62,395 nt of DNA, taken from contig JAUSJX010000123.1 in assembly GCA_030647435.1 (NCBI GenBank), positions 1 to 62,395 of the forward strand. The letters are read 5' to 3'. The translations under genes were made by a program, and so were the position numbers. Positions 5,137-32,664 of the stretch are shown here, piece after piece. The notes beneath the pieces are model-generated. The model made no database searches, had not been told where the DNA came from, and saw only the letters and a program-made list of their open reading frames with translations. Origin of the DNA: Candidatus Rokuibacteriota bacterium (GTDB lineage: Bacteria > Methylomirabilota > Methylomirabilia > Rokubacteriales > CSP1-6). The number at the start of each line of letters is the position of its first letter. The stretch's first letter is position 1.

Positions 5137-6759
5137 ATGATGAGGCGAGGAGTCCGACGTCACCGAATGCTGTTCACCATCGCTGCGCTCGCGCTTTTGG
5201 TTGCCTCGGCAGATGTGGGGATGTCCGCCGGGGCCCAGGCGGCGGAAACGCCCCGCGGGGGGGGCATCCTGCTGGCGGTCATCGGCGCCGAGCCGCCGAG
5301 CCTCGACCCCCACCAGGAGGGCACCTTCGCCAATATCCAGCTCGTGGCGCCGTGCTACAGCCTGCTCTTGCAGTTCGACCCGTACGACTTCTCGAAGATC
5401 ATCGGCGACGTGGCCACGGACTGGAAGATCGCGCCTGATGGGCGGACCTACACGTTCAAGATCCGGCAGGGGATCCGGTTCCACGACGGCTCGGTCATGA
5501 CAGCGGCTGACGTCAAGGCCAGCTACGACAAGATCATCTTCCCGCCGGAGGGGGTCCGGAGCACGCGAAAGACCAGTTACTCGGCGGTGGAGCGGATCGA
5601 GGCCCCCGACTCCGGCACCGTGGTGTTCCGGCTCAAGTTCTCGTCCGCCGCCCTCCTCGTCAACCTGGCGTCGCCGTGGAACGTGATCTACCCGAAGCAG
5701 TACCTGGACCAGGACCCGAACTACTTCAAGACGCACGTGGTAGGCTCGGGGCCCTTCAAGTTCAAGAACTACACGCGCGGCTCCACGTTCGAGGGGGAAC
5801 GGAACCCCGACTACTTCATCAAGGGCCGGCCCTATCTCGACGGGTACAAGTTCTTCATCAGCACGGAGACGTCCGTGCGGGCGGCGGCGATTCGTTCCGG
5901 CCGCGCCTACGTCGAGTTCCGCAACATGCCGGGGCCGGAGGTAGAGGCGATCAAGAAGCAGCTCGGCGACAAGGTCGTCGTGCAGGAAACGGGCATGAGC
6001 TCCTCCTGGGGGATCGCGGTCAACCACACGGTGAAGCCCTTCAACGACGTTCGGGTGCGCAAGGCGCTCACACTGGGCATCGATCGGTACACGGCGGGCA
6101 AGGTGCTGTTTCCCATCAACGGACTGAAGTTCGTCGGGGGATCGCTGCGCCCGGGCTCGGAGTTTGCGTTGCCGGAGGCGGAGCTGCAGAAGCTCCCGGG
6201 GTTCGGCAAGGACATCGAGAAGAGCCGGGCGGAGGCGCGGCGGCTCCTGGCCGAGGCCGGCTATCCCAACGGGCTGAAGGTCGTCTTGAAGAATCGCAAC
6301 ATCAGGCTGCCCTTCCAGGACTGGGGGGTGTTCGTGATCCAGGAGTGGCGCAAGATCGGGGTGGAGGCGGAGCATCGCCCGCTCGAGACGGCGGCCTGGT
6401 TCGCGGATGGGCAGAACACGGGGAACTTCGAGCTGATCGTTTCCTCGCCGAGCACGTTCATGGACGATCCCGATGTGTGGCTCAATCGCTACACCACGGG
6501 GGACACCGAGAACTGGGGCCGGTTCTCCGACCCGAGGCTCGACGATCTGTACGCGCGACAGGCGCGCTCGCTCGACCCCGTCGAGCGCAAGAAGCTCGCC
6601 AACGAGATGGAACGGATCGTCCTGGAGAACGTGCACTACCTGCCGGGGTTGTGGTGGACGCGGAACGTGGTGCACTGGGCGAAGGTGAAGAATTACGTCG
6701 CCCCGCCCAATCAATTCTCCAACCAGAAGCTGCAGGACGTGTGGCTCGCGGAGGACTGA
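5137..6759 (+). CDS. ABC transporter substrate-binding protein, SBP_bac_5 (DppA/OppA) family
   Basis: A 540-residue secreted binding protein. ATG 5137 lies 6 bases after ACGGAGG and is followed by a basic N-terminus and a hydrophobic signal peptide (TIAALALLVASADVG) with likely cleavage near AQAAE. Mature-part hallmarks are EPPSLDPHQEGTF, IAPDGRTYTFKIRQGIRFHDG, VVGSGPFKF and RRLLAEAGYPNGL. The family delivers peptides, nickel or small organic molecules to an inner-membrane ABC importer. No permease or ATPase gene lies nearby, so this is an orphan subunit; its ligand is unknown. Genes on both sides are debris. Confidence 0.88.
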   Translation: MMRRGVRRHRMLFTIAALALLVASADVGMSAGAQAAETPRGGGILLAVIGAEPPSLDPHQEGTFANIQLVAPCYSLLLQFDPYDFSKIIGDVATDWKIAPDGRTYTFKIRQGIRFHDGSVMTAADVKASYDKIIFPPEGVRSTRKTSYSAVERIEAPDSGTVVFRLKFSSAALLVNLASPWNVIYPKQYLDQDPNYFKTHVVGSGPFKFKNYTRGSTFEGERNPDYFIKGRPYLDGYKFFISTETSVRAAAIRSGRAYVEFRNMPGPEVEAIKKQLGDKVVVQETGMSSSWGIAVNHTVKPFNDVRVRKALTLGIDRYTAGKVLFPINGLKFVGGSLRPGSEFALPEAELQKLPGFGKDIEKSRAEARRLLAEAGYPNGLKVVLKNRNIRLPFQDWGVFVIQEWRKIGVEAEHRPLETAAWFADGQNTGNFELIVSSPSTFMDDPDVWLNRYTTGDTENWGRFSDPRLDDLYARQARSLDPVERKKLANEMERIVLENVHYLPGLWWTRNVVHWAKVKNYVAPPNQFSNQKLQDVWLAED

Positions 6760-7204
6760 GCGCCATGGAGATGGACGGCCTCGTCGCTGTGACAAGGGGA
6801 AGAGCCAAGGGGAAGAGCTGTGACAAGGAGGGAAGCGCCTGGGCCGCAGGGCGGCATGACTGAGAACGGGCTTTATGTTATCTACGCTCCTGCCTGTGGA
6901 GCTGCAGGAGGTGAGGGAGGCGTCAATGTCGCGGCGGATGTCGTCTGTGAAGTTCCCTTACACAGTTCTTCAAATGATGTTTCCCGGTGAAGCGGACGGG
7001 AGAGGCGACGCAAGCGACGCAGGCGGCAAAGGCGGGGGCCGCTACTAAGATGACGCTCCTCATCGGATTGAAGAGTGAGAGTTCGAGTATTGGCGGCACA
7101 GCTTTGTGCTCGAACTCATAAGGTTTCCTCACTGCACGTGGCAAGTGAACTCGCCCAGAGCGCCGGCATGGGGCGCAACGGTGTAGGGTGATCGAGGCGC
7201 CTCG
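6760..7204. other. Gene-free stretch with duplicated leader and strong hairpin
   Basis: No convincing gene. Near 6785-6835 the phrase GCTGTGACAAGG occurs twice. At 7079-7117 a bulged hairpin forms (GAGTTCGA...GCACA, loop GCTT, TGTGC TCGAACTC). Short frames here (for example one starting near 6926 with MSRRMSSVKFPYTV) may be leftover N-terminal transposase sequence but are too degraded to call. The IS3-type remnant begins at about 7205. Confidence 0.35.
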
Positions 7205-7993
7205 GGTATTTTCTCTGGCTGATGGACCGCGGAGGCTTTGCCTTGTCGGAGTCCACGGTCTACCGGGTGCTGAAGTGCCATGGCCTGATTTGCGAGGTCA
7301 AAGTGGTGGGCTTCCCGGCAGGTCCAGAGTACCGAGTGAAGACGACGCGGCCCAATGAGCAGTGGCAGTCCGAGCCAGCTACTTCTTCGTGGTGGGCTGG
7401 GGGTGGTACTACCTGATCTCGGTGCTCGACGACTATTCCCGGTTCATCCTGGCCTGGAAGCTCAAGGCGGAGCAGACGGCCGAGGCCATCAGCGAGGTGG
7501 TCCAGCAGGCCGTGGAGTGGACGGGCATGCCGGCGGCGCCGGTCGAGTCCCGAGCGCGGTTGCTCACCGACCGGGGCTCAGGCTACCTGGCGGCCGCGTT
7601 TGAGGACTACCTGCGTGCCCGGGGGATCCGGCACATCTACTGCGCCCCCCATCACCCCAGACCAACGGCAAGCTCGAGCGCTTCCACGAGACGCTCAAGG
7701 CGCGGCTCAATCTGCTGGTCTACACGAGCCCTGAGGTCCTCCGGGCCGCGATGGCGGACTTCATCCGCTTCTACAACCACGAGCGGTACCACGAGGGGAT
7801 CGGGAATGTGACGCCGGCCGATGTGTATGACGGCCGGCGGGAGGCGATACTGCGGCGGCGGGCGGCCCAAAAGAGCCGGACCCTGGCCCGGCGTGTTCGC
7901 TACAATCGGGCCGCAGCCACGCAGGGCACCCAGGGTGAGCTGACTGGCGACCTATCGGTTCCGTGCAGCCTCACGGAGTCCCAAAGGCGCTGA
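7205..7993 (+). mobile_element. IS3-family insertion sequence remnant
   Basis: Only the distal two-thirds of the transposase reading frame is left; terminal inverted repeats and the upstream helix-turn-helix half could not be found. The copy ends near the start of the intact acyl-CoA synthetase gene and may have removed whatever lay in front of it. Confidence 0.65.
7205..7993 (+). pseudogene. IS3-family DDE transposase, N-truncated, two frameshifts
   Basis: Stitched across three frames the product reads GGFALSESTVYRVLK, RVKTTRPNEQWQ, ASYFFVVGWGWYYLIS, LDDYSRFILAWKLK, GIRHIYCAPHHP, QTNGKLERFHETLK and YNHERYHEGIGNVTPADVY, a typical rve-domain IS3 transposase. One base is missing near 7371, inside the codon of the first catalytic Asp (family WQTDA). 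A second is missing in the C-run near 7660, between HHP and QTNGK. The second Asp and the Glu region remain recognisable. The upstream DNA-binding half is absent, so the element is inactive. Confidence 0.82.
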
Positions 7994-26909: not shown

Positions 26910-27935
26910 ATGGATATAGGCGTCTTCGACCATCTCGACCGGCGGGACGTGCCGCTCGCCGAGTTCTACGAGAGCCGGCTGCGCCTGCTCGAGACGTACG
27001 ACGCGGCCGGCTTCTACTCCTACCACTTGGCCGAGCACCACGCGACTCCACTGGGGCTGGCGCCCTCTCCGGGCATCTTCCTCGCGGCCGCCACCCAGCG
27101 CACTCGGCGCATCCGTCTCGGTCCCTGCGTGTACTGCCTGCCGCTCTACGACCCGCTCCGGCTGATCGAAGAAGTCTGCATGCTGGACCAGCTCTCGCGG
27201 GGGCGCTTCGACTTCGGCGTGGGACGCGGGATCGTTCCCTACGAGATGGCGTACTTCAATCTGCACCACCTCGAGACCGAGGAGATCTACCAGGAGGCGC
27301 TCGAGGTCATCCTGCAGGGGCTTCAGAGCGAGGTGCTCGACCACCGCGGGCCGCGCTACACCTACCGGAAGGTGCCCATGGTCCTCCGGCCGTTCCAGCA
27401 GCCGCACCCGCCGCTCTGGTACGGCCTGAGCCACGCTGCCGGCGCGGAGTGGGCGGCGACCAACCGCGTCCACGTCCTCACCAACGGCCCGAGCGAGGTG
27501 TCGGCGCCGCTCTTCGAGCGCTACCGAGAGGTCTGGGAGCGCAAGCACGGCGGCGCAGGCATGCCCAAGCTCGGCATCTCGCGCCACATCGTCGTCGCGC
27601 CCACCGACGCGCAGGCCGAGGCGCTGGTGCGGCCGAGCTACGCCGCGTGGTACGCGAACCTGACCAAGCTCTGGCGCGACTTCGGCTCCGTCCCCATCCG
27701 CTTCGCCCGGGACTTCGACGAGGCGCGCCAGCGTGGCGTCGCCATCGCGGGCACCCCCGCGCGGGTACGCGAGGAGATCGAGCGCCAGGTCGCCGCGAGC
27801 CGCTGCACCTACTTCGTCTGCCGGCTGATGTTCGGCGTGATGAGCGAGACGGAGGCCGCGGCGTCCATCGGCCTCTTCAGCACCGAGGTCATGCCGCATC
27901 TCACCGCGCTATGTCCGCCTGGAGGTGGAGCGTGA
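26910..27935 (+). CDS. LLM-class flavin-dependent monooxygenase (luciferase-like)
   Basis: A 341-residue luciferase-type TIM barrel. ATG 26910 starts MDIGVFDHLDRRDVPL; an in-frame start 18 codons earlier lies inside the promoter. Key blocks: YHLAEHHATPLGLAPSPGIF, RIRLGPCVYCLPLYDPLRL, QLSRGRFDFGVGRGIVPYE and PPLWYGLSHAAGAEWAA. The LAEHHxTPL pattern is typical of FMN-dependent LLM monooxygenases such as alkanal monooxygenase-like proteins. It overlaps the Lin0512 gene (GTGA) and leads a set with VOC, ABM and LigAB-type genes, so aromatic or cyclic substrate oxidation is plausible. Confidence 0.87.
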   Translation: MDIGVFDHLDRRDVPLAEFYESRLRLLETYDAAGFYSYHLAEHHATPLGLAPSPGIFLAAATQRTRRIRLGPCVYCLPLYDPLRLIEEVCMLDQLSRGRFDFGVGRGIVPYEMAYFNLHHLETEEIYQEALEVILQGLQSEVLDHRGPRYTYRKVPMVLRPFQQPHPPLWYGLSHAAGAEWAATNRVHVLTNGPSEVSAPLFERYREVWERKHGGAGMPKLGISRHIVVAPTDAQAEALVRPSYAAWYANLTKLWRDFGSVPIRFARDFDEARQRGVAIAGTPARVREEIERQVAASRCTYFVCRLMFGVMSETEAAASIGLFSTEVMPHLTALCPPGGGA

Positions 27936-28333
27936 CGGCAAAAGCGTCTGTCCTCGAGTTCGGCATGGGCGTGGACGTTCACGGTCGGGACGCCACGAAG
28001 GCCGCCTGCCGCGCGGTATCGGACGCGATCCGGCATTCGAGCCTGCCGCTGCTCCAGGAGGTGCGGGAGCGCGGCGGGAAGATGCTGGTCGACGTCACCG
28101 TTGCGGTTCCCGACCCGGGGTCCGTCAATATCGATATAGTCCGGCGCGAGCTTCCTCACGGCGAGGTGACGGTCCGCGCGGTCAGCGGAGGCTTGAGCGT
28201 GCCCGGCGCGGACACGATCATCGCGTGCGCGGCCATCACCGTCAGCATCGAGTACCCGGAGGCGTCACATGGAGTTCGAGCCGAGACGCTCCCTGCGAGC
28301 CGCAGGCGAGGCGAGCGGCGAGGGGAGGGCTGA
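27932..28333 (+). CDS. Lin0512-family conserved protein
   Basis: 133 residues from GTG 27932, which overlaps the upstream TGA and follows GGAGGTGGA; ATG 27911 is an alternative. The conserved core LEFGMGVDVHGRDATKAACR, then AVSDAIRHSSLPLLQEV and GADTIIACAAITVSIE, matches the Lin0512 family, which has no established function. The last 18 or so residues are a charged tail (ASRRRGERRGEG) encoded by a GCGAGCCGCAGGCGAGGCG repeat-like stretch, beyond the family's usual end. Tight coupling to a luciferase-like enzyme suggests a helper role. Confidence 0.75.
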   Translation: MTAKASVLEFGMGVDVHGRDATKAACRAVSDAIRHSSLPLLQEVRERGGKMLVDVTVAVPDPGSVNIDIVRRELPHGEVTVRAVSGGLSVPGADTIIACAAITVSIEYPEASHGVRAETLPASRRRGERRGEG

Positions 28334-28830: not shown

Positions 28831-29145
28831 ATGCTGGCGATCTGGGTGAAGGCGCGCATCAAGCCGGGGGAGCGGCAGCGCTTCCTGAAGGCGATCGAAG
28901 TGGACGCGCTCGGCTCCGAGGGGGACGAGCCCGGGTGTCTCCGCTTCAACGTCCTCCAGGACGTGAAGGACCCGAACGTCTACTACTTCTACGAGGTCTA
29001 CAAAGACGAGGCCGCGCTCGAAGCCCATCGCGCCACGCCGCACTACGCCATCTGGAAGGCCGTCGCCGACACGCTGGACGGGCCGACCGAGCCGACCCGC
29101 TGCCAGACCGTGTTCCCGGCGGCGCGCGCGTACTGGGGCAAGTAA
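28831..29145 (+). CDS. Antibiotic biosynthesis monooxygenase (ABM) family protein
   Basis: A 104-residue ferredoxin-like fold protein. ATG 28831 follows GGGGAGGCGAGC; a longer frame from 28777 overlaps the VOC gene. Typical blocks: IWVKARIKPGERQRFLKAI, EPGCLRFNVLQDVKDPNVYY, YEVYKDEAALEAHRATPHY. ABM proteins act as cofactor-free oxygenases on quinols, or as small isomerase/haem-degrading enzymes, usually as dimers. Position between VOC and LigAB genes fits catabolism of hydroxylated rings. Confidence 0.85.
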   Translation: MLAIWVKARIKPGERQRFLKAIEVDALGSEGDEPGCLRFNVLQDVKDPNVYYFYEVYKDEAALEAHRATPHYAIWKAVADTLDGPTEPTRCQTVFPAARAYWGK

Positions 29146-29150
29146 GAGCG

Positions 29151-29342
29151 ATGGGCAAGGTCGTCTACGCGGCGGCGATGTCGCACGTGCTCTATCCCGA
29201 CTACTACGGCAAGAACGTGGGTCCCCACGGGCGCCGGATGGTCGAGGAGCTGATCGCCGACGACCACCTGAACGTCTTCTCCTTCGACGCGATCCCGGCC
29301 AGTCGCATCGACCTCGCCGCACTCGAGTGGGCGCTCCCATGA
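29151..29342 (+). pseudogene. LigB-type extradiol dioxygenase remnant keeping both termini (63 codons)
   Basis: An intact 63-codon frame with ATG 29151. Its start, MGKVVYAAAMSHVLYPDYY, has the first metal His of class III (LigB) dioxygenases; a few residues on, ADDHLNVFSFDAIPA resembles the second metal His block (GDDHxxxF), normally about 45 residues further into the protein. The end, RIDLAALEWALP, looks like a natural C-terminus. The expected 200 or so residues in between, with the Glu ligand, are missing. Its stop overlaps the LigA start as it would in an intact ligBA-type pair. LigB identity is inferred from motifs. Confidence 0.5.
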
Positions 29343-29554
29343 GCCGTTACGAGGTCAACGTCCTCCTCTACCGCCTCAAGAAGGACCCGGCCTTCCGCGC
29401 CCGCTTCCGCGACGACGCCGCGGGGGCGCTGACCGCCGCCGAGCTAAGTGACGAGGAGCGGGAGGCGTTCGTCCGCTGGCACTCGCGGCGGCTGAACGAG
29501 CTGGGCGGCTCGCTCCACCTGCTGATCTCCATCCCAGGTCTCGGCGGCCACTAA
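29339..29554 (+). CDS. LigA-like alpha subunit of protocatechuate 4,5-dioxygenase type enzymes
   Basis: 71 residues from ATG 29339, overlapping the previous stop (ATGA). RYEVNVLLYRLKKDPAFRA, then TAAELSDEEREAFVRWHSRR, then LNELGGSLHLL matches the small all-helical LigA domain that caps the active site of LigB. It is slightly shorter than classical LigA. With its LigB partner reduced to a remnant, it may now be without function or partner another LigB elsewhere. Confidence 0.72.
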   Translation: MSRYEVNVLLYRLKKDPAFRARFRDDAAGALTAAELSDEEREAFVRWHSRRLNELGGSLHLLISIPGLGGH

Positions 29555-29572
29555 GCGCAGCAGGAATAAAGT

Positions 29573-29610
29573 TGCCCGGTGGACGGCGACGCGAGCCCGT
29601 CCACCGGGCA
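29573..29610 (+). terminator. Candidate transcription terminator hairpin
   Basis: TGCCCGGTGGACGG (29573-29586) and CCGTCCACCGGGCA (29597-29610) form a perfect 14-bp stem with a 10-base loop, 18 bases after the LigA stop. There is no U-run on the plus strand; the AATAAAG just before it would give a short U-rich tail for leftward transcripts. Confidence 0.5.
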
Positions 29611-29977
29611 GATGTGCGGCAGGCCTCCAGCCTGGGCGCGTCCCAGCGAATGGCCGGGACCTTGGTACAGCTTTACGGCTCAGCGGGCATCGCCCGATGA
29701 CCAAACCCTGACGACTCCCACCATGCCCATTCGACGCCGCCATCGTGCTTTCGGTCAATGAGCCGCATGCGCCAATTCACTGAAGCATTCGGCTCCCTGG
29801 CTCGGGAACTGCCGGTCGCGCCGGGCTGAGGCGCGGCTTCCTCAACTGTGGCCTCGGGGCATCATCGCGTTGCCGTTCCGTTCGCCAGGGGCCGAGCAAC
29901 CCCGCGATGTTCCATCGTTCCTTTTGCCGTTGCCGCGGCATCCCGCTTGCATTTCATGCTCGCGGGAGGTGAGGCTC
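29611..29977. other. Gene-free stretch before the small membrane protein
   Basis: No supported gene. A 23-codon frame (29758-29829, MSRMRQFTEAFGSLARE) lacks a ribosome site. Slightly lower GC than flanking genes. I found no riboswitch or tRNA fold. The last part contains the GGGAGGTGAGG ribosome site for ATG 29978. Confidence 0.35.
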
Positions 29978-30337
29978 ATGGACTGGCCGATCGCTTCTCC
30001 AGGGTGGGATGTCCAGGTGGCGTGGGTGGATAGGCCGAGCATGCTTGGATGGGGTGTGTTGATCTGGGCCGGGGTTGCCGCCGCCCTCGCGGTGCTGCTG
30101 CTGCCGATCGCCACCCGGGCCGTGCGCCGTCGGCGCTTCTGGTGCGCCCAGGCTCAGCGGGAGGTGGAGGTGGAGTTCGAAGAGCACGGGCTGATCGGTT
30201 TTCGGCGGGCCGTGGCCGTGCGGAGCTGCAGCGTGTTCGACCCGCCGACGCACGTGTACTGCCGGCGCTCCTGCCTCGATCAAGACGCGAGAGCGCGGCT
30301 GCCGATGGCACTGGCTCGCCCGTGGAGAAGGCCATGA
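29978..30337 (+). CDS. Small single-span membrane protein with four cysteines
   Basis: 119 residues from ATG 29978, with GGGAGGTGAGG just upstream. Residues 22-46 (GWGVLIWAGVAAALAVLLL) form one membrane helix followed by positive residues (RAVRRRRF), so the C-terminal domain is probably cytoplasmic. That domain holds Cys56, Cys84, Cys95 and Cys99 (C-x27-C-x10-C-x3-C), a pattern able to bind zinc or an iron-sulfur centre. I do not recognise the family. Its stop overlaps the start of a winged-helix protein (ATGA), suggesting a working pair. Confidence 0.6.
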   Translation: MDWPIASPGWDVQVAWVDRPSMLGWGVLIWAGVAAALAVLLLPIATRAVRRRRFWCAQAQREVEVEFEEHGLIGFRRAVAVRSCSVFDPPTHVYCRRSCLDQDARARLPMALARPWRRP

Positions 30338-30561
30338 TCGCGCAACGCTTCGACCGCAGACCGGTAGACCAGCTGGACCCCGAGAACTGGTGGGACGACA
30401 GCGACGGCGAGATCCTCGACTGCCTGAGGGAGCACGGCTCCGCGACCGTGAACGAGCTCAGCGAGGAACTGGGCCTCTCCGAGGGGGCGACGACCGCCTT
30501 CCTCGCCATGCTCGCCCGCGAAGGCCGGGTGAGGATCGTCCAGGTCGAGCTGGTGGCCTGA
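30334..30561 (+). CDS. Small winged-helix DNA-binding protein
   Basis: 75 residues, ATG overlapping the upstream TGA. After an acidic/aromatic N-terminus (LDPENWWDDSDGEILDCL) comes a compact winged helix: GSATVNELSEELGLSEG as helix-turn-helix, ATTAFLAMLAREGRV, then the wing strands RIVQVELVA. This resembles the MarR/ArsR-like domains of short transcription factors, too short for a ligand domain. Partnered with a Cys-rich membrane protein, it could be a membrane-linked sensor pair; that is inference. Convergent with the CaiB gene. Confidence 0.62.
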   Translation: MIAQRFDRRPVDQLDPENWWDDSDGEILDCLREHGSATVNELSEELGLSEGATTAFLAMLAREGRVRIVQVELVA

Positions 30562-30599
30562 CGTCCCGCGCCTGACCCGCCGGCGTCTCCGCCGCGCGG

Positions 30600-31820
30600 C
30601 TACGGCGCCTCGACGACGCGGGAGGTGAGCAGGGCCGCGATCCGCTCCTCGTCATAGCCCAGGAGATGCGCGAGCACGTCGCGGGTATGCTGGCCCACGC
30701 GATGCGGGGCGGGGCCCTGCGGGTGGACCGGCTTGCCGTCGAGGTGGTAGGGACTGGCCGTCACGCGCACGTCCCCGCGGGCCGGATGCGACAGCGCCGG
30801 GAAGAACTTGCGCTCGGCCAGCTGCGGCGCCGCGATGACCTCGGCCGGGCGCAGGACCGGCGCGCAGGGCAGCCGCGCCTTGGTGAGCACGTCGATCGCC
30901 GCGTCCACGCTCGCAAAGTCGTCGAGCCACCGGCCGATTACCTCGCGGAGCGCGCGCCAATTCGTCCGCCGCGCATCCGCCGTCGCAAAACGCGCATCGT
31001 TCGCCAGCTCCGGGCGCTCCATCACCTTGAGCAGCCTCGGCCAGAGCTCGGGCCCGCCCACGACCTGGAACGCCAGGTAACGGTGACCGATCTTGTGGAC
31101 CACCATGCCGGGCCGCGGATTGCCGTGCTCCTGGCCGCCGTTGAGAACGGCCCCGAAGGTCACGCTGTCCGAAGCCACGAGGGCCTCGAGCATGGAGACG
31201 TCCAGATGCGCGCCGCGTCCCGTGCGCGCCCGTCGCCAGAGCGCGCCCAGGATGGCGGTGGAAGCATGGGTCGCGGCCAGCATGTCGGCGGCCTGGAGGT
31301 TCGAGGCCCGAGGGTTTGGCTCGTCGCCCTGCTCGAGGTGCATGAGCCCGGACATGGCATTGATGGTGTGCGCGAAGGCCGGGCGGAGCCGCCACGGGCC
31401 CGTCTGCCCGAAGCCTGAGATGGAGCAGTAGACGATGTCGGGCTTCACCAGGCGGACCGCGTCGTAGTCGCAGCCGAGGCGGGCGATCACGCCCGGCGTG
31501 AAGTTCTCGATGAAGACATCGGCGTGGCGGGCGAGGTCGAGCACCACGCGGCGGCCCTCGGCGTGGGACAGGTCCACCGCCACGCTCTCCTTGCCCGCAT
31601 TGACGCGGATGAAGTACGTGCTCTGGTCGTCGCGGCCGGGCTCGAGCTGGTGCGGGTTGTAACGCGTCTCCTCGCCGGGGCCCGGACGCTCGATCTTGAT
31701 GACGCGCGCGCCCATGTCGGCCAGCAGGCGGGTGCAGTACGGGCCCGCGAGGACGCGGGTGAGGTCGAGGATCAGCAGGCCGCTCAGCGGGAGAGAATCG
31801 TCGGGCGCCGCCGTGGACAT
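30600..31820 (-). CDS. CaiB/BaiF-family (class III) CoA-transferase
   Basis: A 406-residue CoA-transferase. ATG 31820 directly follows the SDR stop; an in-frame start 13 codons upstream lies within that gene. Landmarks: LSGLLILDLTRVLAGPYCT, MGARVIKIERPGPGEETR, VNAGKESVAVDLSHAEGR, FIENFTPGVIARLG, YCSISGFGQTGPWRLRPAF, and the catalytic Asp region of SNLQAADMLAATHAS. It moves CoA from one organic acid to another, often succinyl-CoA to an aromatic or branched acid. Last gene of the M20-SDR-CaiB run. Confidence 0.9.
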   Translation of the reverse strand: MSTAAPDDSLPLSGLLILDLTRVLAGPYCTRLLADMGARVIKIERPGPGEETRYNPHQLEPGRDDQSTYFIRVNAGKESVAVDLSHAEGRRVVLDLARHADVFIENFTPGVIARLGCDYDAVRLVKPDIVYCSISGFGQTGPWRLRPAFAHTINAMSGLMHLEQGDEPNPRASNLQAADMLAATHASTAILGALWRRARTGRGAHLDVSMLEALVASDSVTFGAVLNGGQEHGNPRPGMVVHKIGHRYLAFQVVGGPELWPRLLKVMERPELANDARFATADARRTNWRALREVIGRWLDDFASVDAAIDVLTKARLPCAPVLRPAEVIAAPQLAERKFFPALSHPARGDVRVTASPYHLDGKPVHPQGPAPHRVGQHTRDVLAHLLGYDEERIAALLTSRVVEAP

Positions 31821-31821
31821 A

Positions 31822-32664
31822 TCAGGCTCCACCTTCGAGCTTGGCCAGGGGAGAGACACTGGCGAGCCCGGCCAGGGGAGAGACGATGGTCAGGCCGCCG
31901 TCGAGCAGGATGGTCTGGCCGGTGAGGAAGCCCGCGCCGTCGGAGACGATCCAGGCGACGCAGTCGGCGACGTCCTCCGCGGTGCCGGTGCGCCGCACGG
32001 GCGTTCTCGCCGCGAGGGCCGCCATCGCCGCCTCGTAGTCGCGTCCGAGGCCCCTCTCGATGTACCGGCGTGAAGAATCGGTGGTGATCATGCCCGGGTT
32101 AACGCCGTTGACCGTGATGCCCTCGGGCCCGAGCTCGAGCGCTAAGGAGCGCACGAGGCTCTCGACGGCGGCCTTGGCGCCGCCCAGCAGGCCGTGGCCG
32201 GGCATGGCCTGGAAGGAATCGATGCCCGAGATCGCTACGATGCGGCCGGCGCGGCCGCGCATGAGAGGCCGCGCCGCCTGGATTGCGGCAATGAATGAGT
32301 CCACCGAGATCGCGAAGGTGCGGCGGACGTTTTGTTCCTTCTGGTCCATTAACGGGCGGAAGGAAGTGGCCGCGGCGTTGGCGACGAGAATGTCCACGCG
32401 ACCGAAGGTCTCGCCGACGCGCTCGACGACGGGCGGCACGTCTGACGGCCGGCCCAGCTCGAGCGGGAGTGCCAGGCCCTTGACGCCTTCGAGTTGGATC
32501 TGGGCGACCACTTCGGCCGCGAGATCCGCGCTGCGCCTGTAGGTCAGCACGCAGTGGGCGCCGTCGCGCGCCAGGCGGAGCGCGACGGCGCGGCCGATAC
32601 CGCGCGTGCCCCCCGTGACGACGGCCACGCGGCCGTCGAGCGGTCTCGTCGACGCCGGCGCCAT
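31822..32664 (-). CDS. SDR-family oxidoreductase, FabL-like, without the usual catalytic Tyr
   Basis: 280 residues. ATG 32664 overlaps the M20 stop; the start 11 codons earlier lies inside that gene. VAVVTGGTRGIGRAVALRL is the nucleotide loop (Gly-x3-Gly-x-Gly) and NAAATSFRPLMDQ the Asn-Ala motif. The active-site segment is MPGHGLLGGAKAAVESLVR: Lys is present but the expected Tyr position is His or Leu, as in the FabL/FabI-like layout with wider spacing. The C-terminus (SPLAGLASVSPLAKLEGGA) contains a short duplication. Likely reduces an enoyl- or keto-thioester, or has a modified mechanism. Confidence 0.83.
   Translation of the reverse strand: MAPASTRPLDGRVAVVTGGTRGIGRAVALRLARDGAHCVLTYRRSADLAAEVVAQIQLEGVKGLALPLELGRPSDVPPVVERVGETFGRVDILVANAAATSFRPLMDQKEQNVRRTFAISVDSFIAAIQAARPLMRGRAGRIVAISGIDSFQAMPGHGLLGGAKAAVESLVRSLALELGPEGITVNGVNPGMITTDSSRRYIERGLGRDYEAAMAALAARTPVRRTGTAEDVADCVAWIVSDGAGFLTGQTILLDGGLTIVSPLAGLASVSPLAKLEGGA

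Follow-up and report, generated by a model that had tools for sequence, protein, structure and literature searches.

A 63-codon open reading frame (ORF) in the analysed DNA is very probably a recently decayed pseudogene remnant of ligB, the gene for the catalytic subunit of a class III LigAB-type ring-cleavage dioxygenase. The analysed DNA (hereafter the window) is a 62,395-nucleotide stretch, contig C123 of a Candidatus Rokuibacteriota genome (hereafter G000) whose assembly comprises 5.79 Mb in 176 contigs and is 98.48% complete. This reading is based on (i) short direct repeats at the deletion junctions; (ii) the lack of any other mini form of the gene among the genomes surveyed; (iii) frame-breaking lesions in relatives; (iv) the loss of active-site positions; and (v) a smaller number of LigB genes in G000.

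The translation of the ORF at 29151–29342, MGKVVYAAAMSHVLYPDYYGKNVGPHGRRMVEELIADDHLNVFSFDAIPASRIDLAALEWALP followed by a stop codon, has no meaningful match of its own in Pfam or NCBIfam profile searches, and the LigB family profile (PF02900) does not match it at an E-value of 1. Two Pfam matches to the stub, the Tse3 catalytic domain (E = 0.09) and YPEH2ZP (E = 0.16), are at chance level. Its assignment to LigB therefore relies on intact orthologues, for which we used as reference the 281-codon orthologue in the same-genus genome G024 (protein P0002). With 91.5 bits, the intact G024 gene exceeds the cut-off of PF02900, and its protein matches PDB entries 8K04 and 1B4U as well as NCBIfam model NF009909 (class III extradiol dioxygenase) with an E-value of 2.2e-26, which falls under the model cut-off. 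Residues 1–36 of the stub are identical to the first 36 residues of P0002 (100%), residues 37–50 align with P0002 58–71, and residues 52–63 align with P0002 270–281. At the DNA level, the three blocks share 98%, 100% and 90% identity with G024 (the third block taken together with ligA), which is far above chance. The original prediction had described a dioxygenase-like start, a DDH block and an intact end, and these correspond to the three P0002 segments; both ends match intact LigB, although the stub alone has no profile match. Compared with the LigB catalytic subunit (PF02900; PDB 1B4U/1BOU), the stub retains the first 36 residues, the DDH block and the last 12 residues, but lacks 218 residues that include the positions of His127, His195 and Glu242. 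The features of the locus are listed in Table 1.

Table 1. Features of the ligB remnant and its flanking genes, in window coordinates
Feature	Position	Strand	Remarks
ABM-domain gene, directly upstream of the stub	28831..29145	+	PF03992, E 1.5e-19
ligB remnant	29151..29342	+	63 codons + stop; its three blocks lie in the same order as in the intact G024 gene (281 codons)
Block 1, ligB codons 1–36, with His12 equivalent	29151..29258	+	100% amino acid identity to P0002
Junction 1, lone copy of the 9-bp repeat TGATCGCCG	29251..29259	+	G024 ligB nt 101 and 164
Block 2, ligB codons 58–71 (DDHLNVFSFDAIPA)	29259..29301	+	Carries the histidine equivalent to the second iron ligand
Junction 2, 7-bp repeat copy preceded by two unmatched bases	29302..29310	+	Net 591 bp missing
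Block 3, ligB codons 270–281 (RIDLAALEWALP) + stop	29304..29342	+	Colinear with G024 ligB
ligA, intact 71-codon frame	29339..29554	+	PF07746, E 9e-8 (Pfam)
CoA-transferase-like gene, downstream end of locus	30600..31859	-	Common to G023 and G024

The window locus has the arrangement of a LigAB operon, i.e. a ligB whose stop overlaps the start of the ligA behind it. As the original prediction had stated, the stub stop (ending at 29342) overlaps ligA, whose ATG begins at 29339, and the shared sequence is ATGA. The ABM gene is present at the stub locus in both G024 and a further same-genus genome, G023; the gene at the downstream end is presumably of the CaiB type. Between ligA and this last gene, a stretch of ∼1 kb (29556–30598) is absent from the locus in G023 and G024; its matches elsewhere in the five same-genus genomes are all short and weak. 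A further profile match of the LigA protein (29339–29551), to NCBIfam NF038399 (Os1348 family NHLP clan protein), lies just above the cut-off (40.2 versus 40 bits). Further upstream, a small frame (27934–28332) that follows a luciferase-like monooxygenase gene has no Pfam match and, unlike its neighbours, shows a larger nonsynonymous (18.5) than synonymous (4.5) value relative to G024; it may be decaying or non-coding.

Relative to G024, the stub lacks 63 bp (codons 37–57) at the first junction and a net 591 bp (codons 72–269) at the second, which amounts to 218 of the 281 codons. Both block offsets are multiples of three. The double in-frame internal deletion that had been proposed is confirmed by this comparison and can be placed to within a few bases. 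The missing parts of ligB are on no G000 contig, and no other part of the genome encodes the missing residues at high identity. At junction 1, the two G024 copies of TGATCGCCG bracket the missing 63 bp, and the DNA from 29251 to 29301 is the same as in G024 at 51 of 51 bases. At junction 2, the repeat is CGCATCG, with one copy kept (29304–29310) and two in G024 (ligB nt 223 and 808). The fit here is imperfect: bases 29302–29303 match neither side of the junction in register, and 6 more bases are gone than a simple deletion at the 7-bp repeat predicts.

We compared these junctions with a null that comprises all distinct deletions of at least 20 bp in ligB, among which junction homology of at least 9 bp has a frequency of ∼3e-5 and that of at least 7 bp a frequency of 1.4e-4. 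The most likely mechanism for both deletions is slippage during replication, or annealing, between short direct repeats. The intact gene offers 34 possible distinct deletions at repeats of at least 7 bp, and the reading frame is kept in 26 of them, so retention of the frame in the stub requires no selection. A probable reason for the in-frame outcome is that the repeats of ligB, a GC-rich coding sequence, tend to share codon phase.

The iron site of LigB consists of His12, His61 and Glu242. In an alignment with 1B4U, read by eye, residues H60, H133, H197 and E244 of P0002 lie opposite LigB His61, His127, His195 and Glu242. The stub retains H12 and H60 and has no equivalents of H133, H197 and E244. 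Thus, both histidines of the two-His-one-Glu iron site are present without the glutamate, and the acid/base histidine positions (P0002 H133 and H197) fall within the missing codons 72–269. A study of DesB gives its iron ligands as His12, His59 and Glu239, with Asn57, and describes its His124 and His192 as essential and equated with LigAB His127 and His195 (PMC3962378). Judging from these positions, the stub would not be expected to yield an active extradiol dioxygenase.

The survey of relatives covered 57 genomes of the family and 95 of the class. Full-length ligB (match over at least 278 of the 281 residues) is present in at least 25 of the 57 family genomes. This count leaves out G013 (a partial match to residues 65–225 at a contig end), the broken copies in G000 and G022, and the G023 remnant, which was missed by protein search; a second partial copy in G020 (residues 138–279) and a second full-length copy in G010 (same genome) are likewise uncounted, and matches of no more than ∼44% identity were treated as paralogues. 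In all 25 intact relatives, ligA adjoins ligB, with the identical 4-base overlap in 24. As expected for a deletion pseudogene, there is an intact orthologue in close relatives together with a large internal deletion in the window. For the intact gene, there are 15 named relatives (33 stretches at 15 loci), and every one is a metagenome bin, 14 of Candidatus Rokuibacteriota/Rokubacteria and one of Candidatus Methylomirabilota.

No other 63-codon form of ligB was found in the 57 family genomes or the 95 class genomes. The same 63-residue protein in relatives, which the original prediction had named as evidence against a collapsed gene, does not occur in any other of the 57 family genomes. A search for mini forms in the class set gave matches in 27 genomes, identical to the 27 of the family, and the sole short frame besides the stub is the broken G022 copy (75 codons). 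A literature search on pseudogenes and dioxygenases in Rokubacteria turned up only work on Acidobacteria.

The same-genus set consists of G000 and four relatives (G022, G023, G024 and G025). Two of the four, G023 and G022, carry other ligB lesions. At the same locus, G023 has lost 970 bp (G024 coordinates), out of frame, at the 9-bp repeat CGCGGCGGC: its contig starts within the ABM gene, enters the first ligB codons and jumps into the end of ligA, downstream of which lie the same genes as at the window locus. The G022 copy is more distant (69% identical) and located on another contig; a frameshifting deletion between codons ∼30 and 52 leaves codons 1–30 and those from 52 onward in different frames. 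No ligB orthologue is present in G025 among the matches listed, which include only more distant LigB-domain genes, and both G022 and G025 contain an ABM orthologue in a different arrangement without ligBA. In G024, ligB is intact and is separated from the ABM gene by ∼1.67 kb with another ORF; this insert (contig C46, ∼5622–7291, L079) contains a 348-codon frame and is absent from the window. G000 and G024 are the closest pair (94.4% DNA identity), with G023 more distant from each (91.9 and 92.6%). Independent origins are therefore the simplest account of the deletions in G000 and G023.

The number of LigB-domain genes also differs within this set. A PF02900 search of the G000 contigs does not recover the stub and finds only one gene, on C97. 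LigB-domain matches number six in G024 (two are pieces of one frame), five in G022 (one is the broken copy), four in G025 and two, both in one frame, in G023 (78% complete). LigA matches number one in G000, three in G024, two each in G022 and G025, and one, a fragment, in G023.

The original prediction had also raised an assembly effect or strain variant. In that case, the population would mostly carry intact ligB and the contig would represent a minority deletion allele or a false join. The division of G000 into 176 contigs and the metagenomic origin of all 15 named relatives are compatible with this explanation, and so is the patchy divergence from G024, which is 1 of 151 bases in blocks 1–2, 24 of 213 in ligA and 4–6% in four neighbouring genes, and for which recombination is a possible cause. 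However, G024 shares the flanking genes, and so does G023 within the reach of its contig, and in G023 a different deletion has affected this site. Moreover, a 9-bp or 7-bp repeat falls far below the usual assembler k-mers and is too short to collapse in a usual assembly. With a 9-bp repeat below such k-mers and the missing pieces on no other G000 contig, a pure assembly error is unlikely, and we consider the explanation as a whole, strain variant included, improbable.

Over the 50 codons compared, the stub shows no nonsynonymous and one synonymous change relative to G024, and the dN, dS and dN/dS values of G000 ligA are 0.052, 0.37 and 0.14, respectively. For comparison, dS from G024 is 0.10–0.25 in seven neighbouring genes and 0.05 in the small frame at 27934, and intact ligB is constrained (dN 0.12–0.16 and dS 0.58–1.0 between G024 and nine other genomes). 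Measured from outgroups, LigA dN is slightly larger for G000 than for G024 in seven of eight genomes, which is a hint only because the outgroups are non-independent. Counting against decay, the stub bears no further decay mark, such as a nonsynonymous change, ligA has a low dN/dS, and both losses are in frame. These observations fit a very recent event but also constraint. We infer that the deletion event was recent, which would be a simpler account of the clean remnant than constraint.

Under constraint, the stub would be a retained mini-protein that folds or pairs with LigA, or else a leader translationally coupled to ligA. Such a product could explain the in-frame deletions, the preserved ATGA overlap and the substitution pattern of the stub and ligA, but the phase of the repeats already makes an in-frame outcome expected, and G000 contains just one other LigB-domain gene, with no other LigA found. 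Besides, a single-sequence AlphaFold2 model of the stub, made with no alignment and hence weak evidence, is of low confidence (mean pLDDT 47.9). A LigA-partnering stub kept by selection, as had been suggested, also fares poorly against the survey, in which no other genome has one and two same-genus genomes have frame-breaking lesions. Overall, a functional stub is not supported, with nothing specific in its favour, and we regard a retained mini-protein as highly unlikely. Its most specific form, a selected mini-LigB with two iron-ligand histidines co-translated with LigA, appears very unlikely; if true, the product would perhaps bind metal or hold LigA in a lineage no longer engaged in ring cleavage.

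For the decayed pseudogene, which we prefer, the probable course is that two internal deletions after the split from G024 removed most of ligB and left ligA as an orphan open frame. That the ligA frame is still open may reflect the short time elapsed, or a translational coupling of ligB and ligA that survived the in-frame loss. Bacterial pseudogenes decayed by deletion between short direct repeats are of a known kind. The stub resembles them in its junction repeats, in the differing lesions of sister lineages and in the presence of intact orthologues elsewhere, but differs in that both deletions are in frame, leaving a short frame with native start and stop.

The stub thus reveals no new class of system. 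It is instead a clear small case in which repeat-mediated deletions shrink a gene while its start, stop and frame persist, and annotation may list such a shrunken gene as a small protein. It also indicates that the same ring-cleavage gene has been lost in differing ways inside one genus of Rokubacteria.
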